Shown in pieces: positions 1 to 30,987 of a DNA stretch of 64,000 bases; position 1 is the stretch's first letter, and each line of letters starts with the position of its first letter. Where the stretch lies: contig NC_060106.1 in assembly GCF_021155765.1 (NCBI RefSeq), forward strand, positions 21,540,031 through 21,604,030, read 5' to 3'. The position numbers and the translations under genes were made by a program. Below the pieces are notes generated by a model. That model saw only the letters and a list, made by a program, of their open reading frames with translations. It searched no databases and was not told the DNA's origin. Source of the DNA: Diprion similis (lineage: Eukaryota > Arthropoda > Insecta > Hymenoptera > Diprionidae).

Positions 1-139
1 ATGATGTGTCTATCTCAACTCACTGATCTCTCTCGGCATACTCCGGTCTGCAGAAAAGCATATACAGTGCACGTAGCGTACTGTTATACCCACGGAGCAG
101 TATTATATCTCAGTGCAGTCAACGCTCAGTGTTTCTAGC
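1..139. other. unique flank left of the repeat region
   Basis: No similarity to the satellite monomer and no convincing coding frame was seen here. It is the only apparently single-copy DNA to the left of the array in this window. Confidence 0.4.
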
Positions 140-335
140 AGTCGAATTGATTCCAGCGTTATCGCAAATCGATAAAATTTTCACCAAGAGTCCAAAGGGG
201 TTGACATTACTTTTTTTTTTAGGAAAAATCTTTCATGTCTGAATCGATTTGTATGAACCTTTCTGGACTAAGTGGACCCTCGGCATTGCGAGAAAAATAT
301 CTGGACTAGCAAAAGACCAACAGCTAAGGAGATAC
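140..335 (+). repeat. diverged satellite half-monomer, left outer flank
   Basis: This stretch aligns by eye with the second half of the 304-bp monomer. It has the same order of landmarks: a GAATTGATT-like start, CCAAAGGGGTT, a T-run, GAAAAATCTTT, GAATCGATTTGTATGA, a CCTTTCTGGA-like block and GACCAACAGC. It is much more diverged than any monomer inside the array. After about 335 the monomer similarity stops and the spacer begins. The same junction (GACCAACAGCTA.. into spacer) is found on the right side at about 30230-30250. Confidence 0.75.
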
Positions 336-715
336 AAAAAAAACAAGAAAAATTCATTTTATATTTTTTATTTTAATTCGGGTTACATGAAACGATAACA
401 ATACAACAATATCATACTTATTACATTGGTTCCTGCAGAGGTGTGTTGTACCTGTACGCATACATGCCATAACTTAAGCTATATTTAACAATATGTGTGA
501 TAGACACTAGCTAACACAATATTTTTCAGATTCTGTTGAGGACATGATGTTATACTATTGAGTGTTGTTTAATCACATTTTTGCATTTACATTTATCGGT
601 TACTTTAATACTACTCAACAACTTGTTATATTTTTACACACTGACACCCAAGCACTTGCATTAGAATTAGGGTATATTGAATAAACAGCTGAAACTTAGT
701 AGATACAAATTTGTC
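336..715. repeat. left copy of the array-flanking spacer
   Basis: This is AT-rich non-monomer DNA that reappears on the far side of the array. Shared blocks in the same order are CCTGCAGAGGTGTG (432-445 versus 30341-30354), ACTTAAGCT (472-480 versus 30374-30382), CTGACACCCAA (641-651 versus 30560-30570) and GTATATTGAATAAAC (672-686 versus 30796-30810). Downstream of it, monomer-like sequence resumes weakly from about 840 and clearly from about 893. No open frame, terminal inverted repeat or target-site duplication was recognised. Confidence 0.7.
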
Positions 716-915
716 ATTTTTCTTCCCCACCTTTTCGAAATCCGTGTGCCAATGCAAGGAATTTGGCCGGAATATTTGGTAACTAATTGGGCGACTAGAA
801 ACGCAGTGAACGCACTGAGAAGAGCAAAGGCCATACGGCGAAGAAATTGCGTAGTGAGAAGCAGCAGCAGGAAAAAGAGAGAAAAGAAGCCCTTCGTTTT
901 TCGGCTGTAACTCTC

Positions 916-3900
916 GATCCATTGCTCGCATTGTATTCGGACTGCGCTCAATCGATTCCTCTCGCAAAATTACGTCGGAATAGTACCTGAGAGAATTAAT
1001 TGCAGCACTTTTCAAAGTCGTCGAAATTTTTACCAAAAATGCAAAGGGGTTAGCCTTGGATTTTTTTTGACCGAAAAATCTTTTGTCTTGGAATCGATTT
1101 GTATGACCCTTTCCGGAGTAAATCGACCCCCAGGAACTCAAAAAACGCACGAAACAGAGCGTAGAACCAACAGCAGAGGAATGAGGACAAAAATGAGCAG
1201 TTTTTCGCCTGTAACTTTTGATCCGTTGCTCGCAGCGTATTGGGACTGCGCTTAATCGATTCCTCTCGCAAAATTACGTCGGAATAGTGCCTGAAAGAAT
1301 TAATTGCAGCACTTTTCAAAGTCGTCGAAATTTTTACCAAAAATGCAAAGGGGTTAGCCTTGGATTTTTTTTGGCCGAAAAATCTTTTGTCTTGGAATCG
1401 ATTTGTATGACCCTTTCCGGAGTAAATCGACCCCCAGGAACTCAAAAAACGCACGAAACAGAGCGTAGAAACAACAGCAGAGGGATGAGGACGAAAATAA
1501 GCAGTTTTTCGCCTGTAACTTTTGATCCGTTGCTCGCAGCGTATTGGGACTGCGCTTAATCGATTCCTATCGCAAAATTACGTCGGAATAGTGCCTGAAA
1601 GAATTAATTGCAGCACTTTTCAAAGTCGTCGAAATTTTTACCAAAAATGCAAAGGGGTGAGCCTTGGATTTTTTTTGGCCAAAAAATCTTTTGTCTTGGA
1701 ATCGATTTGTATGACCCTTTGCGGAGTAAATCGACCCCCAGGAACTCAAAAAACGCACGAAACAGAGCGTAGAACCAACAGCAGAGAAATGAGGACGAAA
1801 ATAAGCAGTTTTTCGCCTGTAACTTTTGATCCGTTGCTCGCAGCGTATTGGGACTGCGCTTAATCGATTCCTCTCGCAAAATTACGTCGGAATAGTGCCT
1901 GAAAGAATTAATTGCAGCACTTTTCAAAGTCGTCGAAATTTTTACCAAAAATGCAAAGGGGTTAGCCTTGGATTTTTTTTGGCCGAAAAATCTTTTGTCT
2001 TGGAATCGATTTGTATGACCCTTTCCGGAATAAATCGACCCCCAGGAACTCAAAAAACGCACGAAACAGAGCGTAGAACCAACAGCAGAGGAATGAGGAC
2101 GAAAATAAGCAGTTTTTCGCCTGTAACTTTTGATCCGTTGCTCGCAGCGTATTGGGACTGCGCTTAATCGATTCCTCTCGCAAAATTACGTCGGAATGGT
2201 GCCTGAAAGAATTAATTGCAGCACTTTTCAAAGTCGTCGAAATTTTTACCAAAAATGCAAAGGGGTTAGCCTTGGATTTTTTTTGGCCGAAAAATCTTTT
2301 GTCTTGGAATCGATTTGTATGACCCTTTCCGGAGTAAATCGACCCCCAGGAACTCAAAAAACGCACGAAACAGAGCGTAGAACCAACAGCAGAGGAATAA
2401 GGACGAAAATAAGCAGTTTTTCGCCTGTAACTTTTGATCCGTTGCTCGCAGCGTATTGGGACTGCGCTTAATCGATTCCTCTCGCAAAATTACGTCGGAA
2501 TAGTGCCTAAAAGAATTAATTGCAGCACTTTTCAAAGTCGTCGAAATTTTTACCAAAAATGCAAAGGGGTTAGCCTTGGATTTTTTTTGGTCGAAAAATC
2601 TTTTGTCTTGGAATCGATTTGTATGACCCTTTCCGGAGTAAATCGACCCCCAGGAACTCAAAAAACGCACGAAACAGAGCGTAGAACCAACAGCAGAGGA
2701 ATGAGGACGAAAATAAGCAGTTTTTCGCCTGTAACTTTTGATCCGTTGCTCGCAGCGTATTGGGACTGCGCTTAATCGATTCCTCTCGCAAAATTACGTC
2801 GGAATAGTGCCTAAAAGAATTAATTGCAGCACTTTTCAAAGTCGTCGAAATTTTTACCAAAAATGCAAAGGGGTTAGCCTTGGATTTTTTTTGGCCGAAA
2901 AATCTTTTGTCTTGGAATCGATTTGTATGACCCTTTCCGGAGTAAATCGACCCCCAGGAACTCAAAAAACGCACGAAACAGAGCGTAGAACCAACAGCAG
3001 AGGAATGAGGACGAAAATAAGCAGTTTTTCGCCTGTAACTTTTGATCCGTTGCTCGCAGCGTATTGGGACTGCGCTTAATCGATTCCTCTCGCAAAATTA
3101 CGTCGGAATAGTGCCTGAAAGAATTAATTGCAGCACTTTTCAAAGTCGTCGAAATTTTTACCAAAAATGCAAAGGGGTTAGCCTTGGATTTTTTTTGGCC
3201 GAAAAATCTTTTGTCTTGGAATCGATTTGTATGACCCTTTCCGGAGTAAATCGACCCCCAGGAACTCAAAAAACGCACGAAACAGAGCGTAGAACCAACA
3301 GCAGAGGAATGAGGACGAAAATAAGCAGTTTTTCGCCTGTAACTTTTGATCCGTTGCTCGCAGCGTATTGGGACTGCGCTTAATCGATTCCTCTCGCAAA
3401 ATTACGTCGGAATAGTGCCTGAAAGAATTAATTGCAGCACTTTTCAAAGTCGTCGAAATTTTTACCAAAAATGCAAAGGGGTTAGCCTTGGATTTTTTTT
3501 GGTCGAAAAATCTTTTGTCTTGGAATCGATTTGTATGACCCTTTCCGGAGTAAATCGACCCCCAGGAACTCAAAAAACGCACGAAACAGAGCGTAGAACC
3601 AACAGCAGAGGAATGAGGACGAAAATAAGCAGTTTTTCGCCTGTAACTTTTGATCCGTTGCTCGCAGCGTATTGGGACTGCGCTTAATCGATTCCTCTCG
3701 CAAAATTACGTCGGAATAGTGCCTGAAAGAATTAATTGCAGCACTTTTCAAAGTCGTCGAAATTTTTACCAAAAATGCAAAGGGGTTAGCCTTGGATTTT
3801 TTTTGGCCGAAAAATCTTTTGTCTTGGAATCGATTTGTATGACCCTTTCCGGAGTAAATCGACCCCCAGGAACTCAAAAAACGCACGAAACAGAGCGTAG

Positions 3901-6900
3901 AACCAACAGCAGAGGAATGAGGACGAAAATAAGCAGTTTTTCGCCTGTAACTTTTGATCCGTTGCTCGCAGCGTATTGGGACTGCGCTTAATCGATTCCT
4001 CTCGCAAAATTACGTCGGAATGGTGCCTGAAAGAATTAATTGCAGCACTTTTCAAAGTCGTCGAAATTTTTACCAAAAATGCAAAGGGGTTAGCCTTGGA
4101 TTTTTTTTGGCCGAAAAATCTTTTGTCTTGGAATCGATTTGTATGACCCTTTCCGGAGTAAATCGACCCCCAGGAACTCAAAAAACGCACGAAACAGAGC
4201 GTAGAACCAACAGCAGAGGAATGAGGACGAAAATAAGCAGTTTTTCGCCTGTAACTTTTGATCCGTTGCTCGCAGCGTATTGGGACTGCGCTTAATCGAT
4301 TCCTCTCGCAAAATTACGTCGGAATAGTGCCTAAAAGAATTAATTGCAGCACTTTTCAAAGTCGTCGAAATTTTTACCAAAAATGCAAAGGGGTTAGCCT
4401 TGGATTTTTTTTGGTCGAAAAATCTTTTGTCTTGGAATCGATTTGTATGACCCTTTCCGGAGTAAATCGACCCCCAGGAACTCAAAAAACGCACGAAACA
4501 GAGCGTAGAACCAACAGCAGAGGAATGAGGACGAAAATAAGCAGTTTTTCGCCTGTAACTTTTGATCCGTTGCTCGCAGCGTATTGGGACTGCGCTTAAT
4601 CGATTCCTCTCGCAAAATTACGTCGGAATAGTGCCTGAAAGAATTAATTGCAGCACTGTTCAAAGTCGTCGAAATTTTTACCAAAAATGCAAAGGGGTTA
4701 GCCTTGGATTTTTTTTGGCCGAAAAATCTTTTGTCTTGGAATCGATTTGTATGACCCTTTCCGGAGTAAATCGACCCCCAGGAACTCAAAAAACGCACGA
4801 AACAGAGCGTAGAACCAACAGCAGAGGAATGAGGACGAAAATAAGCAGTTTTTCGCCTGTAACTTTTGATCCGTTGCTCGCAGCGTATTGGGACTGCGCT
4901 TAATCGATTCCTCTCGCAAAATTACGTCGGAATAGTGCCTGAAAGAATTAATTGCAGCACTTTTCAAAGTCGTCGAAATTTTTACCAAAAATGCAAAGGG
5001 GTTAGCCTTGGATTTTTTTTGGCCGAAAAATCTTTTGTCTTGGAATCGATTTGTATGACCCTTTCCGGAGTAAATCGACCCCCAGGAACTCAAAAAACGC
5101 ACGAAACAGAGCGTAGAACCAACAGCAGAGGAATGAGGACGAAAATAAGCAGTTTTTCGCCTGTAACTTTTGATCCGTTGCTCGCAGCGTATTGGGACTG
5201 CGCTTAATCGATTCCTCTCGCAAAATTACGTCGGAATAGTGCCTGAAAGAATTAATTGCAGCACTTTTCAAAGTCGTCGAAATTTTTACCAAAAATGCAA
5301 AGGGGTTAGCCTTGGATTTTTTTTGGCCGAAAAATCTTTTGTCTTGGAATCGATTTGTATGACCCTTTCCGGAATAAATCGACCCCCAGGAACTCAAAAA
5401 ACGCACGAAACAGAGCGTAGAACCAACAGCAGAGGAATGAGGACGAAAATAAGCAGTTTTTCGCCTGTAACTTTTGATCCGTTGCTCGCAGCGTATTGGG
5501 ACTGCGCTTAATCGATTCCTCTCGCAAAATTACGTCGGAATGGTGCCTGAAAGAATTAATTGCAGCACTTTTCAAAGTCGTCGAAATTTTTACCAAAAAT
5601 GCAAAGGGGTTAGCCTTGGATTTTTTTTGGCCGAAAAATCTTTTGTCTTGGAATCGATTTGTATGACCCTTTCCGGAGTAAATCGACCCCCAGGAACTCA
5701 AAAAACGCACGAAACAGAGCGTAGAACCAACAGCAGAGGAATGAGGACGAAAATAAGCAGTTTTTCGCCTGTAACTTTTGATCCGTTGCTCGCAGCGTAT
5801 TGGGACTGCGCTTAATCGATTCCTCTCGCAAAATTACGTCGGAATAGTGCCTAAAAGAATTAATTGCAGCACTTTTCAAAGTCGTCGAAATTTTTACCAA
5901 AAATGCAAAGGGGTTAGCCTTGGATTTTTTTTGGTCGAAAAATCTTTTGTCTTGGAATCGATTTGTATGACCCTTTCCGGAGTAAATCGACCCCCAGGAA
6001 CTCAAAAAACGCACGAAACAGAGCGTAGAACCAACAGCAGAGGAATGAGGACGAAAATAAGCAGTTTTTCGCCTGTAACTTTTGATCCGTTGCTCGCAGC
6101 GTATTGGGACTGCGCTTAATCGATTCCTCTCGCAAAATTACGTCGGAATAGTGCCTGAAAGAATTAATTGCAGCACTGTTCAAAGTCGTCGAAATTTTTA
6201 CCAAAAATGCAAAGGGGTTAGCCTTGGATTTTTTTTGGCCGAAAAATCTTTTGTCTTGGAATCGATTTGTATGACCCTTTCCGGAGTAAATCGACCCCCA
6301 GGAACTCAAAAAACGCACGAAACAGAGCGTAGAACCAACAGCAGAGGAATGAGGACGAAAATAAGCAGTTTTTCGCCTGTAACTTTTGATCCGTTGCTCG
6401 CAGCGTATTGGGACTGCGCTTAATCGATTCCTCTCGCAAAATTACGTCGGAATAGTGCCTGAAAGAATTAATTGCAGCACTTTTCAAAGTCGTCGAAATT
6501 TTTACCAAAAATGCAAAGGGGTTAGCCTTGGATTTTTTTTGGCCGAAAAATCTTTTGTCTTGGAATCGATTTGTATGACCCTTTCCGGAGTAAATCGACC
6601 CCCAGGAACTCAAAAAACGCACGAAACAGAGCGTAGAACCAACAGCAGAGGAATGAGGACGAAAATAAGCAGTTTTTCGCCTGTAACTTTTGATCCGTTG
6701 CTCGCAGCGTATTGGGACTGCGCTTAATCGATTCCTCTCGCAAAATTACGTCGGAATAGTGCCTGAAAGAATTAATTGCAGCACTTTTCAAAGTCGTCGA
6801 AATTTTTACCAAAAATGCAAAGGGGTTAGCCTTGGATTTTTTTTGGCCGAAAAATCTTTTGTCTTGGAATCGATTTGTATGACCCTTTCCGGAGTAAATC

Positions 6901-9900
6901 GACCCCCAGGAACTCAAAAAACGCACGAAACAGAGCGTAGAACCAACAGCAGAGGAATGAGGACGAAAATAAGCAGTTTTTCGCCTGTAACTTTTGATCC
7001 GTTGCTCGCAGCGTATTGGGACTGCGCTTAATCGATTCCTCTCGCAAAATTACGTCGGAATAGTGCCTGAAAGAATTAATTGCAGCACTTTTCAAAGTCG
7101 TCGAAATTTTTACCAAAAATGCAAAGGGGTTAGCCTTGGATTTTTTTTGGTCGAAAAATCTTTTGTCTTGGAATCGATTTGTATGACCCTTTCCGGAGTA
7201 AATCGACCCCCAGGAACTCAAAAAACGCACGAAACAGAGCGTAGAACCAACAGCAGAGGAATGAGGACGAAAATAAGCAGTTTTTCGCCTGTAACTTTTG
7301 ATCCGTTGCTCGCAGCGTATTGGGACTGCGCTTAATCGATTCCTCTCGCAAAATTACGTCGGAATAGTGCCTGAAAGAATTAATTGCAGCACTTTTCAAA
7401 GTCGTCGAAATTTTTACCAAAAATGCAAAGGGGTTAGCCTTGGATTTTTTTTGGCCGAAAAATCTTTTGTCTTGGAATCGATTTGTATGACCCTTTCCGG
7501 AGTAAATCGACCCCCAGGAACTCAAAAAACGCACGAAACAGAGCGTAGAACCAACAGCAGAGGAATGAGGACGAAAATAAGCAGTTTTTCGCCTGTAACT
7601 TTTGATCCGTTGCTCGCAGCGTATTGGGACTGCGCTTAATCGATTCCTCTCGCAAAATTACGTCGGAATAGTGCCTGGAAGAATTAATTGCAGCACTTTT
7701 CAAAGTCGTCGAAATTTTTACCAAAAATGCAAAGGGGTTAGCCTTGGATTTTTTTTGGTCGAAAAATCTTTTGTCTTGGAATCGATTTGTATGACCCTTT
7801 CCGGAGTAAATCGACCCCCAGGAACTCAAAAAACGCACGAAACAGAGCGTAGAACCAACAGCAGAGGAATGAGGACGAAAATAAGCAGTTTTTCGCCTGT
7901 AACTTTTGATCCGTTGCTCGCAGCGTATTGGGACTGCGCTTAATCGATTCCTCTCGCAAAATTACGTCGGAATAGTGCCTGAAAGAATTAATTGCAGCAC
8001 TTTTCAAAGTCGTCGAAATTTTTACCAAAAATGCAAAGGGGTTAGCCTTGGATTTTTTTTGGTCGAAAAATCTTTTGTCTTGGAATCGATTTGTATGACC
8101 CTTTCCGGAGTAAATCGACCCCCAGGAACTCAAAAAACGCACGAAACAGAGCGTAGAACCAACAGCAGAGGAATGAGGACGAAAATAAGCAGTTTTTCGC
8201 CTGTAACTTTTGATCCGTTGCTCGCAGCGTATTGGGACTGCGCTTAATCGATTCCTCTCGCAAAATTACGTCGGAATAGTGCCTGAAAGAATTAATTGCA
8301 GCACTTTTCAAAGTCGTCGAAATTTTTACCAAAAATGCAAAGGGGTTAGCCTTGGATTTTTTTTGGCCGAAAAATCTTTTGTCTTGGAATCGATTTGTAT
8401 GACCCTTTCCGGAGTAAATCGACCCCCAGGAACTCAAAAAACGCACGAAACAGAGCGTAGAACCAACAGCAGAGGAATGAGGACGAAAATAAGCAGTTTT
8501 TCGCCTGTAACTTTTGATCCGTTGCTCGCAGCGTATTGGGACTGCGCTTAATCGATTCCTCTCGCAAAATTACGTCGGAATAGTGCCTGAAAGAATTAAT
8601 TGCAGCACTTTTCAAAGTCGTCGAAATTTTTACCAAAAATGCAAAGGGGTTAGCCTTGGATTTTTTTTGGCCGAAAAATCTTTTGTCTTGGAATCGATTT
8701 GTATGACCCTTTCCGGAGTAAATCGACCCCCAGGAACTCAAAAAACGCACGAAACAGAGCGTAGAACCAACAGCAGAGGAATGAGGACGAAAATAAGCAG
8801 TTTTTCGCCTGTAACTTTTGATCCGTTGCTCGCAGCGTATTGGGACTGCGCTTAATCGATTCCTCTCGCAAAATTACGTCGGAATAGTGCCTGAAAGAAT
8901 TAATTGCAGCACTTTTCAAAGTCGTCGAAATTTTTACCAAAAATGCAAAGGGGTTAGCCTTGGATTTTTTTTGGCCGAAAAATCTTTTGTCTTGGAATCG
9001 ATTTGTATGACCCTTTCCGGAGTAAATCGACCCCCAGGAACTCAAAAAACGCACGAAACAGAGCGTAGAACCAACAGCAGAGGAATGAGGACGAAAATAA
9101 GCAGTTTTTCGCCTGTAACTTTTGATCCGTTGCTCGCAGCGTATTGGGACTGCGCTTAATCGATTCCTCTCGCAAAATTACGTCGGAATAGTGCCTGAAA
9201 GAATTAATTGCAGCACTTTTCAAAGTTGTCGAAATTTTTACCAAAAATGCAAAGGGGTTAGCCTTGGATTTTTTTTGGCCGAAAAATCTTTTGTCTTGGA
9301 ATCGATTTGTATGACCCTTTCCGGAGTAAATCGACCCCCAGGAACTCAAAAAACGCACGAAACAGAGCGTAGAACCAACAGCAGAGGAATGAGGACGAAA
9401 ATAAGCAGTTTTTCGCCTGTAACTTTTGATCCGTTGCTCGCAGCGTATTGGGACTGCGCTTAATCGATTCCTCTCGCAAAATTACGTCGGAATAGTGCCT
9501 GAAAGAATTAATTGCAGCACTTTTCAAAGTCGTCGAAATTTTTACCAAAAATGCAAAGGGGTTAGCCTTGGATTTTTTTTGGCCGAAAAATCTTTTGTCT
9601 TGGAATCGATTTGTATGACCCTTTCCGGAGTAAATCGACCCCCAGGAACTCAAAAAACGCACGAAACAGAGCGTAAAACCAACAGCAGAGGAATGAGGAC
9701 GAAAATAAGCAGTTTTTCGCCTGTAACTTTTGATCCGTTGCTCGCAGCGTATTGGGACTGCGCTTAATCGATTCCTCTCGCAAAATTACGTCGGAATAGT
9801 GCCTGAAAGAATTAATTGCAGCACTTTTCAAAGTCGTCGAAATTTTTACCAAAAATGCAAAGGGGTTAGCCTTGGATTTTTTTTGGCCGAAAAATCTTTT

Positions 9901-12900
9901 GTCTTGGAATCGATTTGTATGACCCTTTCCGGAGTAAATCGACCCCCAGGAACTCAAAAAACGCACGAAACAGAGCGTAGAACCAACAGCAGAGGAATGA
10001 GGACGAAAATAAGCAGTTTTTCGCCTGTAACTTCTGATCCGTTGCTCGCAGCGTATTGGGACTGCGCTTAATCGATTCCTCTCGCAAAATTACGTCGGAA
10101 TAGTGCCTGAAAGAATTAATTGCAGCACTTTTCAAAGTCGTCGAAATTTTTACCAAAAATGCAAAGGGGTTAGCCTTGGATTTTTTTTGGCCGAAAAATC
10201 TTTTGTCTTGGAATCGATTTGTATGACCCTTTCCGGAGTAAATCGACCCCCAGGAACTCAAAAAACGCACGAAACAGAGCGTAGAACCAACAGCAGAGAA
10301 ATGAGGACGAAAATAAGCAGTTTTTCGCCTGTAACTTTTGATCCGTTGCTCGCAGCGTATTGGGACTGCGCTTAATCGATTCCTCTCGCAAAATTACGTC
10401 GGAATAGTGCCTGAAAGAATTAATTGCAGCACTTTTCAAAGTCGTCGAAATTTTTACCAAAAATGCAAAGGGGTTAGCCTTGGATTTTTTTTGGCCGAAA
10501 AATCTTTTGTCTTGGAATCGATTTGTATGACCCTTTCCGGAGTAAATCGACCCCCAGGAACTCAAAAAACGCACGAAACAGAGCGTAGAACCAACAGCAG
10601 AGGAATGAGGACGAAAATAAGCAGTTTTTCGCCTGTAACTTTTGATCCGTTGCTCGCAGCGTATTGGGACTGCGCTTAATCGATTCCTCTCGCAAAATTA
10701 CGTCGGAATAGTGCCTGAAAGAATTAATTGCAGCACTTTTCAAAGTCGTCGAAATTTTTACCAAAAATGCAAAGGGGTTAGCCTTGGATTTTTTTTGGCC
10801 GTAAAATCTTTTGTCTTGGAATCGATTTGTATGACCCTTTCCGGAGTAAATCGACCCCCAGGAACTCAAAAAACGCACGAAACAGAGCGTAGAACCAACA
10901 GCAGAGAAATGAGGACGAAAATAAGCAGTTTTTCGCCTGTAACTTTTGATCCGTTGCTCGCAGCGTATTGGGACTGCGCTTAATCGATTCCTCTCGCAAA
11001 ATTACGTCGGAATAGTGCCTGAAAGAATTAATTGCAGCACTTTTCAAAGTCGTCGAAATTTTTACCAAAAATGCAAAGGGGTTAGCCTTGGATTTTTTTT
11101 GGCCGAAAAATCTTTTGTCTTGGAATCGATTTGTATGACCCTTTCCGGAGTAAATCGACCCCCAGGAACTCAAAAAACGCACGAAACAGAGCGTAGAACC
11201 AACAGCAGAGGAATGAGGACGAAAATAAGCAGTTTTTCGCCTGTAACTTTTGATCCGTTGCTCGCAGCGTATTGGGACTGCGCTTAATCGATTCCTCTCG
11301 CAAAATTACGTCGGAATAGTGCCTGAAAGAATTAATTGCAGCACTTTTCAAAGTCGTCGAAATTTTTACCAAAAATGCAAAGGGGTTAGCCTTGGATTTT
11401 TTTTGGCCGAAAAATCTTTTGTCTTGGAATCGATTTGTATGACCCTTTCCGGAGTAAATCGACCCCCAGGAACTCAAAAAACGCACGAAACAGAGCGTAG
11501 AACCAACAGCAGAGAAATGAGGACGAAAATAAGCAGTTTTTCGCCTGTAACTTTTGATTCGTTGCTCGCAGCGTATTGGGACTGCGCTTAATCGATTCCT
11601 CTCGCAAAATTACGTCGGAATAGTGCCTGAAAGAATTAATTGCAGCACTTTTCAAAGTCGTCGAAATTTTTACCAAAAATGCAAAGGGGTTAGCCTTGGA
11701 TTTTTTTTGGCCGAAAAATCTTTTGTCTTGGAATCGATTTGTATGACCCTTTCCGGAGTAAATCGACCCCCAGGAACTCAAAAAACGCACGAAACAGAGC
11801 GTAGAACCAACAGCAGAGGAATGAGGACGAAAATAAGCAGTTTTTCGCCTGTAACTTTTGATCCGTTGCTCGCAGCGTATTGGGACTGCGCTTAATCGAT
11901 TCCTCTCGCAAAATTACGTCGGAATAGTGCCTGAAAGAATTAATTGCAGCACTTTTCAAAGTCGTCGAAATTTTTACCAAAAATGCAAAGGGGTTAGCCT
12001 TGGATTTTTTTTGGCCGAAAAATCTTTTGTCTTGGAATCGATTTGTATGACCCTTTCCGGAGTAAATCGACCCCCAGGAACTCAAAAAACGCACGAAACA
12101 GAGCGTAGAACCAACAGCAGAGAAATGAGGACGAAAATAAGCAGTTTTTCGCCTGTAACTTTTGATTCGTTGCTCGCAGCGTATTGGGACTGCGCTTAAT
12201 CGATTCCTCTCGCAAAATTACGTCGGAATAGTGCCTGAAAGAATTAATTGCAGCACTTTTCAAAGTCGTTGAAATTTTTACCAAAAATGCAAAGGGGTTA
12301 GCCTTGGATTTTTTTTGGCCGAAAAATCTTTTGTCTTGGAATCGATTTGTATGACCCTTTCCGGAGTAAATCGACCCCCAGGAACTCAAAAAACGCACGA
12401 AACAGAGCGTAGAACCAACAGCAGAGGAATGAGGACGAAAATAAGCAGTTTTTCGCCTGTAACTTTTGATCCGTTGCTCGCAGCGTATTGGGACTGCGCT
12501 TAATCGATTCCTCTCGCAAAATTACGTCGGAATAGTGCCTGAAAGAATTAATTGCAGCACTTTTCAAAGTCGTCGAAATTTTTACCAAAAATGCAAAGGG
12601 GTTAGCCTTGGATTTTTTTTGGCCGAAAAATCTTTTGTCTTGGAATCGATTTGTATGACCCTTTCCGGAGTAAATCGACCCCCAGGAACTCAAAAAACGC
12701 ACGAAACAGAGCGTAGAACCAACAGCAGAGGAATGAGGACGAAAATAAGCAGTTTTTCGCCTGTAACTTTTGATCCGTTGCTCGCAGCGTATTGGGACTG
12801 CGCTTAATCGATTCCTCTCGCAAAATTACGTCGGAATAGTGCCTGAAAGAATTAATTGCAGCACTTTTCAAAGTCGTCGAAATTTTTACCAAAAATGCAA

Positions 12901-18900: not shown

Positions 18901-21900
18901 CAAAATTACGTCGGAATAGTGCCTGAAAGAATTAATTGCAGCACTTTTCAAAGTCGTCGAAATTTTTACCAAAAATGCAAAGGGGTTAGCCTTGGATTTT
19001 TTTTGGCCGAAAAATCTTTTGTCTTGGAATCGATTTGTATGACCCTTTCCGGAGTAAATCGACCCCCAGGAACTCAAAAAACGCACGAAACAGAGCGTAG
19101 AACCAACAGCAGAGAAATGAGGACGAAAATAAGCAGTTTTTCGCCTGTAACTTTTGATTCGTTGCTCGCAGCGTATTGGGACTGCGCTTAATCGATTCCT
19201 CTCGCAAAATTACGTCGGAATAGTGCCTGAAAGAATTAATTGCAGCACTTTTCAAAGTCGTCGAAATTTTTACCAAAAATGCAAAGGGGTTAGCCTTGGA
19301 TTTTTTTTGGCCGAAAAATCTTTTGTCTTGGAATCGATTTGTATGACCCTTTCCGGAGTAAATCGACCCCCAGGAACTCAAAAAACGCACGAAACAGAGC
19401 GTAGAACCAACAGCAGAGAAATGAGGACGAAAATAAGCAGTTTTTCGCCTGTAACTTTTGATTCGTTGCTCGCAGCGTATTGGGACTGCGCTTAATCGAT
19501 TCCTCTCGCAAAATTACGTCGGAATAGTGCCTGAAAGAATTAATTGCAGCACTTTTCAAAGTCGTCGAAATTTTTACCAAAAATGCAAAGGGGTTAGCCT
19601 TGGATTTTTTTTGGCCGAAAAATCTTTTGTCTTGGAATCGATTTGTATGACCCTTTCCGGAGTAAATCGACCCCCAGGAACTCAAAAAACGCACGAAACA
19701 GAGCGTAAAACCAACAGCAGAGGAATGAGGACGAAAATAAGCAGTTTTTCGCCTGTAACTTTTGATCCGTTGCTCGCAGCGTATTGGGACTGCGCTTAAT
19801 CGATTCCTCTCGCAAAATTACGTCGGAATAGTGCCTGAAAGAATTAATTGCAGCACTTTTCAAAGTCGTCGAAATTTTTACCAAAAATGCAAAGGGGTTA
19901 GCCTTGGATTTTTTTTGGCCGAAAAATCTTTTGTCTTGGAATCGATTTGTATGACCCTTTCCGGAGTAAATCGACCCCCAGGAACTCAAAAAACGCACGA
20001 AACAGAGCGTAGAACCAACAGCAGAGAAATGAGGACGAAAATAAGCAGTTTTTCGCCTGTAACTTTTGATTCGTTGCTCGCAGCGTATTGGGACTGCGCT
20101 TAATCGATTCCTCTCGCAAAATTACGTCGGAATAGTGCCTGAAAGAATTAATTGCAGCACTTTTCAAAGTCGTCGAAATTTTTACCAAAAATGCAAAGGG
20201 GTTAGCCTTGGATTTTTTTTGGCCGAAAAATCTTTTGTCTTGGAATCGATTTGTATGACCCTTTCCGGAGTAAATCGACCCCCAGGAACTCAAAAAACGC
20301 ACGAAACAGAGCGTAGAACCAACAGCAGAGGAATGAGGACGAAAATAAGCAGTTTTTCGCCTGTAACTTTTGATCCGTTGCTCGCAGCGTATTGGGACTG
20401 CGCTTAATCGATTCCTCTCGCAAAATTACGTCGGAATAGTGCCTGAAAGAATTAATTGCAGCACTTTTCAAAGTCGTCGAAATTTTTACCAAAAATGCAA
20501 AGGGGTTAGCCTTGGATTTTTTTTGGCCGTAAAATCTTTTGTCTTGGAATCGATGTGTATGACCCTTTCCGGAGTAAATCGACCCCCAGGAACTCAAAAA
20601 ACGCACGAAACAGAGCGTAGAACCAACAGCAGAGAAATGAGGACGAAAATAAGCAGTTTTTCGCCTGTAACTTTTGATCCGTTGCTCGCAGCGTATTGGG
20701 ACTGCGCTTAATCGATTCCTCTCGCAAAATTACGTCGGAATAGTGCCTGAAAGAATTAATTGCAGCACTTTTCAAAGTCGTCGAAATTTTTACCAAAAAT
20801 GCAAAGGGGTTAGCCTTGGATTTTTTTTGGCCGAAAAATCTTTTGTCTTGGAATCGATTTGTATGACCCTTTCCGGAGTAAATCGACCCCCAGGAACTCA
20901 AAAAACGCACGAAACAGAGCGTAGAACCAACAGCAGAGGAATGAGGACGAAAATAAGCAGTTTTTCGCCTGTAACTTTTGATCCGTTGCTCGCAGCGTAT
21001 TGGGACTGCGCTTAATCGATTCCTCTCGCAAAATTACGTCGGAATAGTGCCTGAAAGAATTAATTGCAGCACTTTTCAAAGTCGTCGAAATTTTTACCAA
21101 AAATGCAAAGGGGTTAGCCTTGGATTTTTTTTGGCCGAAAAATCTTTTGTCTTGGAATCGATTTGTATGACCCTTTCCGGAGTAAATCGACCCCCAGGAA
21201 CTCAAAAAACGCACGAAACAGAGCGTAGAACCAACAGCAGAGAAATGAGGACGAAAATAAGCAGTTTTTCGCCTGTAACTTTTGATTCCTTGCTCGCAGC
21301 GTATTGGGACTGCGCTTAATCGATTCCTCTCGCAAAATTACGTCGGAATAGTGCCTGAAAGAATTAATTGCAGCACTTTTCAAAGTCGTCGAAATTTTTA
21401 CCAAAAATGCAAAGGGGTTAGCCTTGGATTTTTTTTGGCCGAAAAATCTTTTGTCTTGGAATCGATTTGTATGACCCTTTCCGGAGTAAATCGACCCCCA
21501 GGAACTCAAAAAACGCACGAAACAGAGCGTAGAACCAACAGCAGAGGAATGAGGACGAAAATAAGCAGTTTTTCGCCTGTAACTTTTGATCCGTTGCTCG
21601 CAGCGTATTGGGACTGCGCTTAATCGATTCCTCTCGCAAAATTACGTCGGAATAGTGCCTGAAAGAATTAATTGCAGCACTTTTCAAAGTCGTCGAAATT
21701 TTTACCAAAAATGCAAAGGGGTTAGCCTTGGATTTTTTTTGGCCGAAAAATCTTTTGTCTTGGAATCGATTTGTATGACCCTTTCCGGAGTAAATCGACC
21801 CCCAGGAACTCAAAAAACGCACGAAACAGAGCGTAGAACCAACAGCAGAGAAATGAGGACGAAAATAAGCAGTTTTTCGCCTGTAACTTTTGATTCGTTG

Positions 21901-24900
21901 CTCGCAGCGTATTGGGACTGCGCTTAATCGATTCCTCTCGCAAAATTACGTCGGAATAGTGCCTGAAAGAATTAATTGCAGCACTTTTCAAAGTCGTTGA
22001 AATTTTTACCAAAAATGCAAAGGGGTTAGCCTTGGATTTTTTTTGGCCGAAAAATCTTTTGTCTTGGAATCGATTTGTATGACCCTTTCCGGAGTAAATC
22101 GACCCCCAGGAACTCAAAAAACGCACGAAACAGAGCGTAGAACCAACAGCAGAGGAATGAGGACGAAAATAAGCAGTTTTTCGCCTGTAACTTTTGATCC
22201 GTTGCTCGCAGCGTATTGGGACTGCGCTTAATCGATTCCTCTCGCAAAATTACGTCGGAATAGTGCCTGAAAGAATTAATTGCAGCACTTTTCAAAGTCG
22301 TCGAAATTTTTACCAAAAATGCAAAGGGGTTAGCCTTGGATTTTTTTTGGCCGAAAAATCTTTTGTCTTGGAATCGATTTGTATGACCCTTTCCGGAGTA
22401 AATCGACCCCCAGGAACTCAAAAAACGCACGAAACAGAGCGTAGAACCAACAGCAGAGGAATGAGGACGAAAATAAGCAGTTTTTCGCCTGTAACTTTTG
22501 ATCCGTTGCTCGCAGCGTATTGGGACTGCGCTTAATCGATTCCTCTCGCAAAATTACGTCGGAATAGTGCCTGAAAGAATTAATTGCAGCACTTTTCAAA
22601 GTCGTCGAAATTTTTACCAAAAATGCAAAGGGGTTAGCCTTGGATTTTTTTTGGCCGAAAAATCTTTTGTCTTGGAATCGATTTGTATGACCCTTTCCGG
22701 AGTAAATCGACCCCCAGGAACTCAAAAAACGCACGAAACAGAGCGTAGAACCAACAGCAGAGAAATGAGGACGAAAATAAGCAGTTTTTCGCCTGTAACT
22801 TTTGATTCGTTGCTCGCAGCGTATTGGGACTGCGCTTAATCGATTCCTCTCGCAAAATTACGTCGGAATAGTGCCTGAAAGAATTAATTGCAGCACTTTT
22901 CAAAGTCGTCGAAATTTTTACCAAAAATGCAAAGGGGTTAGCCTTGGATTTTTTTTGGCCGAAAAATCTTTTGTCTTGGAATCGATTTGTATGACCCTTT
23001 CCGGAGTAAATCGACCCCCAGGAACTCAAAAAACGCACGAAACAGAGCGTAGAACCAACAGCAGAGGAATGAGGACGAAAATAAGCAGTTTTTCGCCTGT
23101 AACTTTTGATCCGTTGCTCGCAGCGTATTGGGACTGCGCTTAATCGATTCCTCTCGCAAAATTACGTCGGAATAGTGCCTGAAAGAATTAATTGCAGCAC
23201 TTTTCAAAGTCGTCGAAATTTTTACCAAAAATGCAAAGGGGTTAGCCTTGGATTTTTTTTGGCCGAAAAATCTTTTGTCTTGGAATCGATTTGTATGACC
23301 CTTTCCGGAGTAAATCGACCCCCAGGAACTCAAAAAACGCACGAAACAGAGCGTAGAACCAACAGCAGAGGAATGAGGACGAAAATAAGCAGTTTTTTGC
23401 CTGTAACTTTTGATCCGTTGCTCGCAGCGTATTGGGACTGCGCTTAATCGATTCCTCTCGCAAAATTACGTCGGAATAGTGCCTGAAAGAATTAATTGCA
23501 GCACTTTTCAAAGTCGTCGAAATTTTTACCAAAAATGCAAAGGGGTTAGCCTTGGATTTTTTTTGGCCGAAAAATCTTTTGTCTTGGAATCGATTTGTAT
23601 GACCCTTTCCGGAGTAAATCGACCCCCAGGAACTCAAAAAACGCACGAAACAGAGCGTAGAACCAACAGCAGAGGAATGAGGACGAAAATAAGCAGTTTT
23701 TCGCCTGTAACTTTTGATCCGTTGCTCGCAGCGTATTGGGACTGCGCTTAATCGATTCCTCTCGCAAAATTACGTCGGAATAGTGCCTGAAAGAATTAAT
23801 TGCAGCACTTTTCAAAGTCGTCGAAATTTTTACCAAAAATGCAAAGGGGTTAGCCTTGGATTTTTTTTGGCCGAAAAATCTTTTGTCTTGGAATCGATTT
23901 GTATGACCCTTTCCGGAGTAAATCGACCCCCAGGAACTCAAAAAACGCACGAAACAGAGCGTAGAACCAACAGCAGAGAAATGAGGACGAAAATAAGCAG
24001 TTTTTCGCCTGTAACTTTTGATTCGTTGCTCGCAGCGTATTGGGACTGCGCTTAATCGATTCCTCTCGCAAAATTACGTCGGAATAGTGCCTGAAAGAAT
24101 TAATTGCAGCACTTTTCAAAGTCGTCGAAATTTTTACCAAAAATGCAAAGGGGTTAGCCTTGGATTTTTTTTGGCCGAAAAATCTTTTGTCTTGGAATCG
24201 ATTTGTATGACCCTTTCCGGAGTAAATCGACCCCCAGGAACTCAAAAAACGCACGAAACAGAGCGTAGAACCAACAGCAGAGGAATGAGGACGAAAATAA
24301 GCAGTTTTTCGCCTGTAACTTTTGATCCGTTGCTCGCAGCGTATTGGGACTGCGCTTAATCGATTCCTCTCGCAAAATTACGTCGGAATAGTGCCTGAAA
24401 GAATTAATTGCAGCACTTTTCAAAGTCGTCGAAATTTTTACCAAAAATGCAAAGGGGTTAGCCTTGGATTTTTTTTGGCCGAAAAATCTTTTGTCTTGGA
24501 ATCGATTTGTATGACCCTTTCCGGAGTAAATCGACCCCCAGGAACTCAAAAAACGCACGAAACAGAGCGTAGAACCAACAGCAGAGGAATGAGGACGAAA
24601 ATAAGCAGTTTTTCGCCTGTAACTTTTGATCCGTTGCTCGCAGCGTATTGGGACTGCGCTTAATCGATTCCTCTCGCAAAATTACGTCGGAATAGTGCCT
24701 GAAAGAATTAATTGCAGCACTTTTCAAAGTCGTCGAAATTTTTACCAAAAATGCAAAGGGGTTAGCCTTGGATTTTTTTTGGCCGAAAAATCTTTTGTCT
24801 TGGAATCGATTTGTATGACCCTTTCCGGAGTAAATCGACCCCCAGGAACTCAAAAAACGCACGAAACAGAGCGTAGAACCAACAGCAGAGAAATGAGGAC

Positions 24901-27900
24901 GAAAATAAGCAGTTTTTCGCCTGTAACTTTTGATTCGTTGCTCGCAGCGTATTGGGACTGCGCTTAATCGATTCCTCTCGCAAAATTACGTCGGAATAGT
25001 GCCTGAAAGAATTAATTGCAGCACTTTTCAAAGTCGTCGAAATTTTTACCAAAAATGCAAAGGGGTTAGCCTTGGATTTTTTTTGGCCGAAAAATCTTTT
25101 GTCTTGGAATCGATTTGTATGACCCTTTCCGGAGTAAATCGACCCCCAGGAACTCAAAAAACGCACGAAACAGAGCGTAGAACCAACAGCAGAGGAATGA
25201 GGACGAAAATAAGCAGTTTTTCGCCTGTAACTTTTGATCCGTTGCTCGCAGCGTATTGGGACTGCGCTTAATCGATTCCTCTCGCAAAATTACGTCGGAA
25301 TAGTGCCTGAAAGAATTAATTGCAGCACTTTTCAAAGTCGTCGAAATTTTTACCAAAAATGCAAAGGGGTTAGCCTTGGATTTTTTTTGGCCGAAAAATC
25401 TTTTGTCTTGGAATCGATTTGTATGACCCTTTCCGGAGTAAATCGACCCCCAGGAACTCAAAAAACGCACGAAACAGAGCGTAGAACCAACAGCAGAGGA
25501 ATGAGGACGAAAATAAGCAGTTTTTCGCCTGTAACTTTTGATCCGTTGCTCGCAGCGTATTGGGACTGCGCTTAATCGATTCCTCTCGCAAAATTACGTC
25601 GGAATAGTGCCTGAAAGAATTAATTGCAGCACTTTTCAAAGTCGTCGAAATTTTTACCAAAAATGCAAAGGGGTTAGCCTTGGATTTTTTTTGGCCGAAA
25701 AATCTTTTGTCTTGGAATCGATTTGTATGACCCTTTCCGGAGTAAATCGACCCCCAGGAACTCAAAAAACGCACGAAACAGAGCGTAGAACCAACAGCAG
25801 AGAAATGAGGACGAAAATAAGCAGTTTTTCGCCTGTAACTTTTGATTCGTTGCTCGCAGCGTATTGGGACTGCGCTTAATCGATTCCTCTCGCAAAATTA
25901 CGTCGGAATAGTGCCTGAAAGAATTAATTGCAGCACTTTTCAAAGTCGTCGAAATTTTTACCAAAAATGCAAAGGGGTTAGCCTTGGATTTTTTTTGGCC
26001 GAAAAATCTTTTGTCTTGGAATCGATTTGTATGACCCTTTCCGGAGTAAATCGACCCCCAGGAACTCAAAAAACGCACGAAACAGAGCGTAGAACCAACA
26101 GCAGAGGAATGAGGACGAAAATAAGCAGTTTTTCGCCTGTAACTTTTGATCCGTTGCTCGCAGCGTATTGGGACTGCGCTTAATCGATTCCTCTCGCAAA
26201 ATTACGTCGGAATAGTGCCTGAAAGAATTAATTGCAGCACTTTTCAAAGTCGTCGAAATTTTTACCAAAAATGCAAAGGGGTTAGCCTTGGATTTTTTTT
26301 GGCCGAAAAATCTTTTGTCTTGGAATCGATTTGTATGACCCTTTCCGGAGTAAATCGACCCCCAGGAACTCAAAAAACGCACGAAACAGAGCGTAGAACC
26401 AACAGCAGAGGAATGAGGACGAAAATAAGCAGTTTTTCGCCTGTAACTTTTGATCCGTTGCTCGCAGCGTATTGGGACTGCGCTTAATCGATTCCTCTCG
26501 CAAAATTACGTCGGAATAGTGCCTGAAAGAATTAATTGCAGCACTTTTCAAAGTCGTCGAAATTTTTACCAAAAATGCAAAGGGGTTAGCCTTGGATTTT
26601 TTTTGGCCGAAAAATCTTTTGTCTTGGAATCGATTTGTATGACCCTTTCCGGAGTAAATCGACCCCCAGGAACTCAAAAAACGCACGAAACAGAGCGTAG
26701 AACCAACAGCAGAGAAATGAGGACGAAAATAAGCAGTTTTTCGCCTGTAACTTTTGATTCGTTGCTCGCAGCGTATTGGGACTGCGCTTAATCGATTCCT
26801 CTCGCAAAATTACGTCGGAATAGTGCCTGAAAGAATTAATTGCAGCACTTTTCAAAGTCGTCGAAATTTTTACCAAAAATGCAAAGGGGTTAGCCTTGGA
26901 TTTTTTTTGGCCGAAAAATCTTTTGTCTTGGAATCGATTTGTATGACCCTTTCCGGAGTAAATCGACCCCCAGGAACTCAAAAAACGCACGAAACAGAGC
27001 GTAGAACCAACAGCAGAGAAATGAGGACGAAAATAAGCAGTTTTTCGCCTGTAACTTTTGATTCGTTGCTCGCAGCGTATTGGGACTGCGCTTAATCGAT
27101 TCCTCTCGCAAAATTACGTCGGAATAGTGCCTGAAAGAATTAATTGCAGCACTTTTCAAAGTCGTCGAAATTTTTACCAAAAATGCAAAGGGGTTAGCCT
27201 TGGATTTTTTTTGGCCGAAAAATCTTTTGTCTTGGAATCGATTTGTATGACCCTTTCCGGAGTAAATCGACCCCCAGGAACTCAAAAAACGCACGAAACA
27301 GAGCGTAGAACCAACAGCAGAGGAATGAGGACGAAAATAAGCAGTTTTTCGCCTGTAACTTTTGATCCGTTGCTCGCAGCGTATTGGGACTGCGCTTAAT
27401 CGATTCCTCTCGCAAAATTACGTCGGAATAGTGCCTGAAAGAATTAATTGCAGCACTTTTCAAAGTCGTCGAAATTTTTACCAAAAATGCAAAGGGGTTA
27501 GCCTTGGATTTTTTTTGGCCGAAAAATCTTTTGTCTTGGAATCGATTTGTATGACCCTTTCCGGAGTAAATCGACCCCCAGGAACTCAAAAAACGCACGA
27601 AACAGAGCGTAGAACCAACAGCAGAGGAATGAGGACGAAAATAAGCAGTTTTTCGCCTGTAACTTTTGATCCGTTGCTCGCAGCGTATTGGGACTGCGCT
27701 TAATCGATTCCTCTCGCAAAATTACGTCGGAATAGTGCCTGAAAGAATTAATTGCAGCACTTTTCAAAGTCGTCGAAATTTTTACCAAAAATGCAAAGGG
27801 GTTAGCCTTGGATTTTTTTTGGCCGAAAAATCTTTTGTCTTGGAATCGATTTGTATGACCCTTTCCGGAGTAAATCGACCCCCAGGAACTCAAAAAACGC

Positions 27901-28893
27901 ACGAAACAGAGCGTAGAACCAACAGCAGAGAAATGAGGACGAAAATAAGCAGTTTTTCGCCTGTAACTTTTGATTCGTTGCTCGCAGCGTATTGGGACTG
28001 CGCTTAATCGATTCCTCTCGCAAAATTACGTCGGAATAGTGCCTGAAAGAATTAATTGCAGCACTTTTCAAAGTCGTCGAAATTTTTACCAAAAATGCAA
28101 AGGGGTTAGCCTTGGATTTTTTTTGGCCGAAAAATCTTTTGTCTTGGAATCGATTTGTATGACCCTTTCCGGAGTAAATCGACCCCCAGGAACTCAAAAA
28201 ACGCACGAAACAGAGCGTAGAACCAACAGCAGAGAAATGAGGACGAAAATAAGCAGTTTTTCGCCTGTAACTTTTGATTCGTTGCTCGCAGCGTATTGGG
28301 ACTGCGCTTAATCGATTCCTCTCGCAAAATTACGTCGGAATAGTGCCTGAAAGAATTAATTGCAGCACTTTTCAAAGTCGTCGAAATTTTTACCAAAAAT
28401 GCAAAGGGGTTAGCCTTGGATTTTTTTTGGCCGAAAAATCTTTTGTCTTGGAATCGATTTGTATGACCCTTTCCGGAGTAAATCGACCCCCAGGAACTCA
28501 AAAAACGCACGAAACAGAGCGTAGAACCAACAGCAGAGGAATGAGGACGAAAATAAGCAGTTTTTCGCCTGTAACTTTTGATCCGTTGCTCGCAGCGTAT
28601 TGGGACTGCGCTTAATCGATTCCTCTCGCAAAATTACGTCGGAATAGTGCCTGAAAGAATTAATTGCAGCACATTTCAAAGTCGTCGAAATTTTTACCAA
28701 AAATGCAAAGGGGTTAGCCTTGGATTTTTTTTGGCCGAAAAATCTTTTGTCTTGGAATCGATTTGTTTGACCCTTTCCGGAGTAAATTGACCCCCAGGAA
28801 CTCAAAAAACGCACGAAACAGAGCGTAGAACCAACAGCAGAGGAATGAGGACGAAAATAAGCAGTTATTCGCCTGTAACTTTCGATCCGTTGC
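916..28893 (+). repeat. 304-bp satellite array, 92 tandem monomers
   Basis: The landmark GATCCGTTGCTCGCAGCG recurs every 304 bp from 1220 to 28580, and its last, broken copy starts at 28884; a diverged first copy is at 916. That gives 92 periods covering 27968 bp, which is exactly 92 x 304, so there is no net length change anywhere. Most monomers differ from their neighbours by zero to three bases. The outermost left monomers differ most, as expected for unequal crossing-over and conversion. The monomer carries A and T runs (T8, A6) and two ATCGAT-type dyads. It has few stop codons, so overlapping open frames of 113 codons (+) and 134 codons (-) recur every 304 bp. Because 304 is not a multiple of 3, each frame re-reads the same DNA in a shifted phase, so these are not treated as genes. 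Function is unknown. Confidence 0.97.
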
Positions 28894-30116
28894 CTTACTT
28901 TTTTGGTCATTTTCGGAGCCGAAAATTTTTCGTCTCGTAATCTATTTGTATGATCATCTCCAGAGTAATTCGACCCCAAGGAACTCAGAAAACACATAAA
29001 AAAGAGCGTCGGACCAACAGCACAGAAATTACGACGAAAATCTCCAGTTTTTTGGCTGTAACTTTTCAGGCGTTGCTCGCAGCGTATTGGGACTGCGCTC
29101 AATCGATTTCTCTCGCGAAATGACGTCGGAATAGGGCATGCAAAAATTTTTTGCAGCACTTTTTAGAATCGTTGAAATTTTCGCCAAAAATCCAAAGGGG
29201 TAAGCCTTACTTTTTTTGTCATTTTCGGAGCCGAAAATTTTTCGTTTCGGATTCGATTTGTATGACCATCTCTAGAGTAATTCGACCCCAAGGAACTCAG
29301 AAAACACATGAAAAAGAGCGTCGGACCAACAGCACAGAAATTACGACGAAAATCTCCAGTTTTTTGGCTGTAACTTTGGATGCGTTGCTCGCAGCGTATT
29401 GGGACTGCGCTTAATCGATTTCTCTCGCAAAATCACGTCGGCATAGGGCATGCAAAAATTTATTGCAGCACTTTTCAGAATTGTTGAAATTTTCGCCAAA
29501 AATCCAAAGGGGTAAGCCTTACTGTTTTGGTCATTTTCGGAGCCGAAAATTTTTCGTCTCGGAATCGATTTGTATGACCATCTCTAGAGTAATTCGACCC
29601 CAAGGAACTCAGAAAACACATGAAAAAGATCGTCGGACCAGCAGCAGAGAAATTACGACGAAAATCTCAAGTTTTTTGGCCGTAACTTTCGATGCGTTGC
29701 TCGCAGCGTATCGGGACTGCGCATAATCGATTTCTGTCGCAAAATTACGTCGATATAGTGCGTCCAAGAATTGATCACAGCATTTTTCAAACAAGTTAAA
29801 ATTTTTACAACAAAATCTAAGGGGTTAGCCTTACTTTTTTTGTGATTCTCGGAGCCGAAATATTTTTGTCTCGGAATCGATTTGTATGACCCTTGCTGGA
29901 CTAACTGCATATCCAGGATCACAAGAAACACATACAAAAGTGCGTAGGACCAACAGCAGAGAAACGACCATGAAAATCTCCAGTATTTTGGCTGTAACTT
30001 CAATGCTTTGCTTGCAGCGAATTCGGACCGCACGCAAAATCACGTCAATGTAGTGCATCCAAGGATTGATCACAGCCTTATTTAAAAAAGTCGAAAGTTT
30101 TACCAAAAATCCAAAC
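28894..30116 (+). repeat. 312-bp sister satellite, about four tandem units
   Basis: The landmark CTTACT followed by a T-run occurs at 28894, 29206, 29518 and 29830, a spacing of exactly 312 bp three times. The next, degraded equivalent is at about 30117 (287 bp on). The units are clearly related to the 304-bp monomer (shared CCAAAGGGGTAAGCC, GTATGACCATCTC, GGACCAACAGCA and GCGTTGCTCGCAGCGTATTG). They differ at many sites and carry an extra TCATTTTCGGAGCC-like segment. Divergence rises towards the right. They form a separate subfamily abutting the homogeneous array. Confidence 0.92.
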
Positions 30117-30250
30117 GCTTCAATTTTTGCTTGAGTTCAAAACCTCTCCATTCCACAATCGATTCGTATGGACCTTTCCAGACTGATTGGACAGAATCAC
30201 GCAAAAGAAATCCGGAACAACGAAAGACCAACAGCTAGGGAAATGCATAG
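30117..30250 (+). repeat. degraded half-monomer, right flank
   Basis: Monomer landmarks persist in weak form: CAATCGATTCGTATGGACC, TTTCCAGACTGATTGGAC and GAAAGACCAACAGCTAGGG. The similarity ends at the same monomer position at which the left outer half-monomer (140-335) ends, and the spacer sequence then begins. Confidence 0.65.
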
Positions 30251-30850
30251 AAAATACGGAAAAAATCGATTTTCTATTTAACTCCCAGTTTTATGAAATA
30301 GTGACAATACAATATCAAACATTAACTTATTGTATCGTATCCTGCAGAGGTGTGATGCAGTACGAAGGCCAAAACTTAAGCTTAGATATTTATTAACTAC
30401 GATCAACACGATATGTAGAATTTTTTGAACATATATATACTGTACACCTATCTCCTCATATTAGAATAAGATATTCCGTGTAATGTTTATTCATAATTAT
30501 AGCATATCTTTTTGTCTGACACCTCAATTCTATTCGTCGATTTGTTAAATTTCTATATACTGACACCCAACACTTGCACTATAAAGTTGCGATGTATACA
30601 CCTCGCAAACACGGCTAGCCAAAGCTTCTATACCGCTCAAGCGATCAGCATGAAACTTGGTCAAATGATGACTTAATTCGGCAAAACATGGAGCGACTTT
30701 TTACTTCCTGAAAATTTGAAATAAAAATTATAGATTAGTCATGAGTCACCGTAATTGGGAAAATTTTCGCAGTTGTACTAAAAGTACACCTGAAAGTATA
30801 TTGAATAAACTGCATCAAACTGAGTCTGAAACTGTGTGGCTATGACTCAC
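30251..30850. repeat. right copy of the array-flanking spacer
   Basis: This is homologous in order to 336-715 through four shared blocks, beginning with CCTGCAGAGGTGTG at 30341. It is longer than the left copy: about 190-200 bp between roughly 30590 and 30790 has no counterpart on the left, so one copy gained or lost a segment. No coding capacity was recognised. Confidence 0.7.
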
Positions 30851-30908
30851 TGATTTTTTTTCCTACCTCTATGACAATTGTGTGCAGATTTTACGTATTT
30901 CGGACGAG

Positions 30909-30987
30909 ACTTTCGATCTGACTGCGTACACTCGATTTCCCTCGTAAAAATACGTCAACATGGTGCATCAAAGAATTGGTTGATGCA
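30909..30987 (+). repeat. monomer fragment beyond the right spacer
   Basis: The blocks ACTTTCGATC, ACTGCGTACACTCGATTTCC, CTCGTAAAAATACGTC and GTGCATCAAAGAATTG match the monomer region around its CTCGCAAAATTACGTCGG segment. This shows monomer sequence resuming after the right spacer, mirroring the left side, where monomers resume after the left spacer. Confidence 0.65.

Follow-up and report, generated by a model that had tools for sequence, protein, structure and literature searches.

The window analysed here is a stretch of 64,000 nucleotides of Diprion similis (C2:21540031-21604030), and all of our evidence comes from this single genome, an assembly of 269 Mb in 60 contigs. The left half of the window holds a tandem array of monomers (M, 304-312 bp) that is bracketed by two copies of a spacer (S, about 440 bp), with every part on the forward strand; open frames in the right half of the window match RRM, LRR and AAA domains and are animal-like in appearance. 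The parts were chained with nhmmer, using a monomer profile HMM built from 86 units. The chain opens with a partial monomer (143-343) that begins at phase 97 and continues to phase 306 and into the left spacer, S1 (core 331-717; profile match 290-771). The similarity of other monomers to the window begins at 141-155. S1, defined by alignment and profile, belongs to a dispersed family and contains at 680-685 an AATAAA that the spacer alignment and the genome pattern hits identify as the best-kept stretch of that family. A second partial monomer (770-851, phase 218-299) lies 3’ of S1, and about 92 monomers of 304 bp each follow (896-28858). Older monomers of a 312-bp type, 77-82% identical to a core monomer, occupy 28892-29978, and a last diverged monomer (29984-30252, phase 2-304) stands ahead of the right spacer, S2 (30201-30910, by alignment and profile). 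S2 carries its own AATAAA at 30804-30809, as placed by the spacer alignment, and is succeeded by an outer partial monomer (30904-30987) that starts at phase 10 and stops at about phase 112.

The sequence-only reading of this DNA had proposed that two homologous spacers (336-715 and 30251-30850) bracket the array, that the order at both sides is monomer, spacer, monomer, and that both spacers interrupt the monomer at about the same place. All three points hold. The profile chain recovers that order at both sides, and each spacer sits at a unit boundary, the left-hand monomer ending at phase 304-306 ahead of either one, near the position first given. When 1-1000 was aligned with 29901-31100, window 146-666 matched 30064-30583 at 65% identity over 548 columns (E 7e-48), in a main block that starts within the monomer and crosses the junction into the spacer; the final spacer block (GTATATTGAATAAAC...) forms a separate alignment outside it. 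The two window spacers alone, with the foldback arm described below excluded, reach a local score of 82, whereas 300 dinucleotide shuffles average 13 and never exceed 22. Three details needed amendment. The bracketed 304-bp array stands, but to its right the core gives way to roughly 3.6 older monomers of 312 bp; the outer monomer pieces are incomplete, the left one lacking everything before phase 97 and the right one everything after about phase 112; and the second spacer measures 600 bp only because it is split by an arm of about 206 bp (30580-30785, forward strand) of another dispersed repeat of foldback type, foreign to the spacer and monomer family. A second arm of that repeat, in inverted orientation, is present at 19 of the 29 loci at which we read it (some of these being one element seen from either arm), and the profile chain detects the monomer at none of the 29, so that these loci serve as a negative control.

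A search of the assembly with the left spacer gave at least 45 matches (40 of 68 candidates scored). Besides the two window copies we read 27 from elsewhere in the genome (L002, L004, L006-L008 and L070-L091), leaving out L001, L003, L005 and L069 as duplicates of other copies or of the window; about 13 places from the search lie outside this set. A monomer adjoins at least one side of the spacer in all 29 copies and both sides in 21, and same-strand spacer pairs recur 6.5-41 kb apart. These observations support the composite unit, a spacer within monomers, that had been suggested from the letters, and dispose of the contrary picture of spacers without any link to monomers. In 19 of 25 cases the left monomer runs out at phase 292-307, and the right monomer restarts at phase 1-11 in 10 of 25 and at phase 132-192 in 12 of 25; this places the spacer at the unit boundary, in many cases with a half monomer after it. 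With a stretch of L004 that begins in the monomer and spans S as the query, the genome returned 43 match rows, and 17 matches, L004 itself not counted, begin no more than 35 bases into the query and thus cover monomer plus spacer. Scanning for the spacer core, with 26 fixed bases of which at most 3 could mismatch, gave 138 hits (68 forward, 70 reverse) and none for the reversed pattern; a pattern of equal stringency taken from the 5’ part of S gave 25. The spacer places listed fall on at least 13 contigs, and therefore something has moved. There are exceptions: L086 and L087 are each a lone spacer accompanied by one monomer, the spacer core is missing from L073, and at L076 a second spacer is present in inverted orientation.

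Bracketing recurs elsewhere in the genome. Merging the left-spacer search, the core scan and the search with the L004 stretch gave 136 mapped spacer places, which include 100 of the 138 core hits. Among these listed places, all 14 pairs up to 150 kb apart are on the same strand, and pairs 150-300 kb apart are divided between same-strand (6) and opposite (8). Ten pairs, the window’s included, lie 2-45 kb apart where random placement predicts 1.74, and 0 of 2000 randomisations reached 10. The array between two spacers was read end to end in the window only. L002 is a left end whose spacer partner sits to its right, and L084 and L088 are right ends with spacer partners on the array side; the predicted right partner of L002, when read (L091), has the order M, S, M134-307 and then M1-125 to the end of the piece. 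Of 30 further monomer places, each a cluster or a single hit, eight have a spacer no more than 50 kb away, always on the same strand, against 0.93 under the null; the remaining 22 have none within 50 kb among the spacer places listed. At C4:23480536, C6:9725754 and L089 we find S-M-S steps only 0.7-1.0 kb long, and these are what a composite ancestral unit leads one to expect.

The interior and the edges of the window array differ in age. Among the 91 aligned 304-bp units, 89 differ from the consensus by 0-3 bases, one by 5 and one by 13. Because the 304-bp core is this uniform, the edge monomers are so much less alike and the two spacers are only 66% identical, we take the interior to be young and the borders to be old, two clocks within a single locus. 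Monomers up to 98% identical to those of the window make arrays on C9 and C11, and over 109 units the mean identity is 83.5% within loci versus 75.0% between loci. With about 92 head-to-tail copies of 304 bp, and with units more alike within than between loci, the array has the properties of satellite DNA. The uniformity of its units, 90 of 91 within 0-5 bases of the consensus, is a sign of exchange, or of rolling amplification, among monomers. The proposal that the array expanded by exchange between two spacer copies finds no support, as the spacers are too dissimilar and are not each other’s nearest relatives.

AATAAA is nearly unchanged although the spacers are only about 65% alike. It is intact in all 28 aligned spacer copies that retain the core (16 left, 9 right and 3 lone, in the alignment of 29); the next-best 6-mers of the spacer are intact in 89% (one that overlaps AATAAA) and 88% (ACTGAC), against a median of 22% over 6-mers. 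Because words close to the core had led us to many of the copies, the sample favours an intact core. The copies free of this selection are L071 and L074, found through the 5’ half, and S2, found by position, all three with AATAAA intact, and L073, also found through the 5’ half, in which the core is missing. The core-pattern counts, including the 138 hits, are independent of that choice of copies: 96 of the 100 listed hits keep AATAAA intact, and it accounts for 5 of 185 mismatches where 42.7 are expected. Within 60 bases 3’ of AATAAA, a run of at least four T is found in 22 of 28 copies (commonest at 31 bases) and a TTGT-like motif in 24 of 28 (commonest at 25 bases). The spacer thus has the sequence hallmarks of a functional poly(A) site, a conserved AATAAA with a downstream T- or GT-rich element, and the conservation of AATAAA argues that the borders would still act as such sites. 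The spacing of two conserved blocks in the core might also hint at an snRNA-type promoter, a speculative reading. For a conserved RNA structure, 0 pairs were predicted from 25 spacer sequences. A search of window 1-2000 against Rfam, with E up to 5, gave two weak matches, both under gathering scores, and no ribozyme; a retrozyme, which is a hammerhead tandem repeat, was rejected since neither a hammerhead nor another ribozyme family was found in that interval. Inside the array AATAAA occurs twice on the forward strand and never on the reverse, where composition predicts about 20 and 13, a shortage that carries no weight because all units copy one monomer.

Our data support an ancient composite unit, its wide dispersal, turnover of the interior between monomers, and retention of the spacers at the borders. 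On balance we think it somewhat more likely than not that an old composite family of S and M has had its interior re-amplified and its edge spacers kept as poly(A) sites. The ancestral unit would have contained both modules, and the composite may have spread long ago, carried by a mobile element or re-inserted from circular DNA. The interior may since have been renewed through unequal exchange or rolling amplification among monomers, with S remaining at the edges. The left S would terminate transcripts arriving from outside and the right S those of the array, and each array would be a transcription unit with its own 3’ ends; a role as a working poly(A) site may be what keeps S at the edges. 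The conserved signal suggests that satellites of this kind could be transcription units with built-in stop signals. A more far-reaching proposal, which we offer tentatively, is that arrays dispersed genome-wide are fenced at either edge by a poly(A) or termination module under selection and may be kept among genes as insulated non-coding transcription units, with selection acting on the fence and the content of the array free to turn over.

To our knowledge, satellite arrays are usually held to be without fixed borders or fixed transcription signals; at these arrays, the conserved part is the borders. If constraint on AATAAA is confirmed, it would allow one to test directly whether dispersed satellites are maintained as transcription units, and it would bear on how arrays can endure next to genes and leave them undisturbed. 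A spacer-bracketed satellite architecture was not recognised among titles and abstract beginnings, in open journals, of the literature on Diprion and sawfly satellites, internal tandem repeats, and satellite polyadenylation or termination.

The spacers might instead be edge relics without function, left over from an old composite satellite whose centre was replaced by unequal exchange and whose edges were homogenised less. A relic of this kind would account for the union of old edges with a young interior in a single array, for the S-M-S steps at some loci, and for a spacer tree (29 copies, 13 of 26 inner branches open) in which end branches are long and inner branches short. It does not, however, predict an intact AATAAA amid the decay of the remaining S, and we consider it unlikely. 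Array edges in bivalve satellites, as far as the consulted part of that study describes them, also have partial monomers beside other sequence, with junctions that are mostly abrupt and varied (PMC5139131); unlike those junctions, the spacer here enters at one monomer phase in most copies.

Alternatively, the arrays may be non-autonomous mobile elements with direct terminal repeats (partial M, S and partial M) around an internal monomer array, AATAAA then belonging to the element’s own transcript in the manner of an LTR. Direct repeats at both ends and wide dispersal are in keeping with this, and L086 and L087 resemble lone spacers. L002 and L078, which lie on different chromosomes (C2 and C7), have about 55-70 bases in common left of the first monomer piece and nothing further out, a shared limit that looks like an insertion boundary; the window locus is without it. 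At the window locus a target-site duplication was not found, the matches near the two boundaries being only 5-6 bases long and the ends old; no inverted repeat of 10 bases or more joins the window ends (the longest inverted match is 9 bases), and a constant outer end was not found. Outer ends also differ from locus to locus, and because of this the ancestral unit is not delimited. The window’s S copies are no closer to each other than to other copies, and L002 and L091 share 65% identity; identity at insertion has therefore been lost or was never present. On the spacer tree S1 and S2 (W1 and W2) are not sisters, W1 grouping with L070 (90/91) and W2 weakly with L072 (85/24), and close relatives are limited to L089/L090 (90.5%) and L002/L078 (87.3%). 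Separate left-end and right-end spacer lineages were rejected, as the tree requires 9 label changes against shuffled means of 8.2 and 8.3, with 445 and 440 of 500 shuffles as low. A mobile element whose direct repeats are terminal may have caused the original dispersal; as an account of the arrays as a whole we regard such an element as unlikely. The suggestion of mobility is in keeping with the dispersal, and the ends of an element were not found at the window locus; the sequence-only interpretation as a whole is partly supported.

Several known kinds of element come close to this family. Direct S copies with AATAAA at both sides could be read as the terminal repeats of an LTR-type element, but a partial monomer lies outside them and the ends vary; the target-site duplication expected of such an element was not found at the window locus. 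Non-autonomous Helentrons with central satellite repeats (Cg_HINE of Crassostrea gigas, DINE-1) carry, between a left and a right flank, a satellite-like array of fixed orientation; the two flanks differ and carry subterminal inverted repeats and a 3’ palindrome, in the sections of the source consulted (PMC7492417). Our family has the same dispersed flank-array-flank layout. Unlike those of Helentrons, its flanks are direct copies of one spacer in the same orientation, with a conserved AATAAA; they form no separate groups on the tree, and at the window locus subterminal inverted repeats are lacking. The foldback element Tetris of Drosophila virilis is dispersed as well, and its internal tandem repeats have expanded into satellite-like arrays (PMC4079207). 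In the portion of that source available, the repeats of Tetris lie within terminal inverted repeats, whereas our spacers flank a single array as direct repeats, without long terminal inverted repeats, and S pairs up to 150 kb apart share a strand. As described in the consulted parts of these sources, Helentron arrays, Tetris and bivalve junctions have neither direct brackets of the same sequence nor a conserved poly(A) signal (PMC7492417, PMC4079207, PMC5139131).

A family of non-coding genes resembling hsr-omega would have a promoter 5’ of the left S, a short transcript that runs to the left S, and a long repeat transcript that runs to the right S. The order of unique part, AATAAA, tandem array and AATAAA fits, and hsr-omega, a Drosophila non-coding RNA gene with several transcripts, has a unique part with exons followed by a long array of tandem repeats of about 280 bp each, according to the part of the source consulted (PMC9865238). 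Tandem repeats within a transcription unit, here a proposed one, would be common to both; unlike hsr-omega, a single gene of two exons and an intron, ours is a large family, dispersed through the genome, in which spacers stand at either side of the array. A promoter or exon was not found, and the flank at 1-142 is unmatched elsewhere among 39 scored candidates, so that a shared upstream part is not apparent; we think this explanation quite improbable. Chance likeness between two AT-rich spacers that are only about 65% alike, the alternative that the first reading had itself named, is refuted by the dinucleotide shuffles, by a junction phase that is the same at many loci and by the same-strand pairing of spacers, and its probability is negligible.

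The window's 304-bp monomer unit has close relatives in three large arrays on other chromosomes of the assembly, at C9:1820440-1861672, C9:4173473-4215418 and C11:8109328-8180876, whose units are 95-98% identical to it across the three. This level of identity indicates that one monomer variant has spread between chromosomes recently. In a core pattern scan for the spacer that interrupts the monomer, five cores at C4:22.3-26.3 Mb have the variant TTGTACTACGATTAAG in common and form a local subfamily. At one locus (L076), a second spacer, inverted, and a monomer adjoin the first spacer, an inverted arrangement seen only there among the 27 spacer loci read outside the window.

Inside the right spacer, positions 30580-30785 (206 bp) are an arm belonging to a foldback-type repeat. 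Only a single arm is present in the window copy; two inverted arms were found at 19 of the 29 loci fetched, some of which show one element from either arm. The search for this repeat counted 1080 candidates at first look. A second dispersed repeat of about 70-95 bp lies at 30997-31092 and starts 10 bases past the right end of the monomer. In the search that took it in, 29 of 42 matches start at query base 147-154.

A 916-aa open frame on the minus strand (59176-61926) has no Pfam match and contains a 171-bp tandem repeat. Its repeated units terminate in MDLT, CDVT or CEMT and are reminiscent of the MELT repeats found in KNL1, a kinetochore protein.
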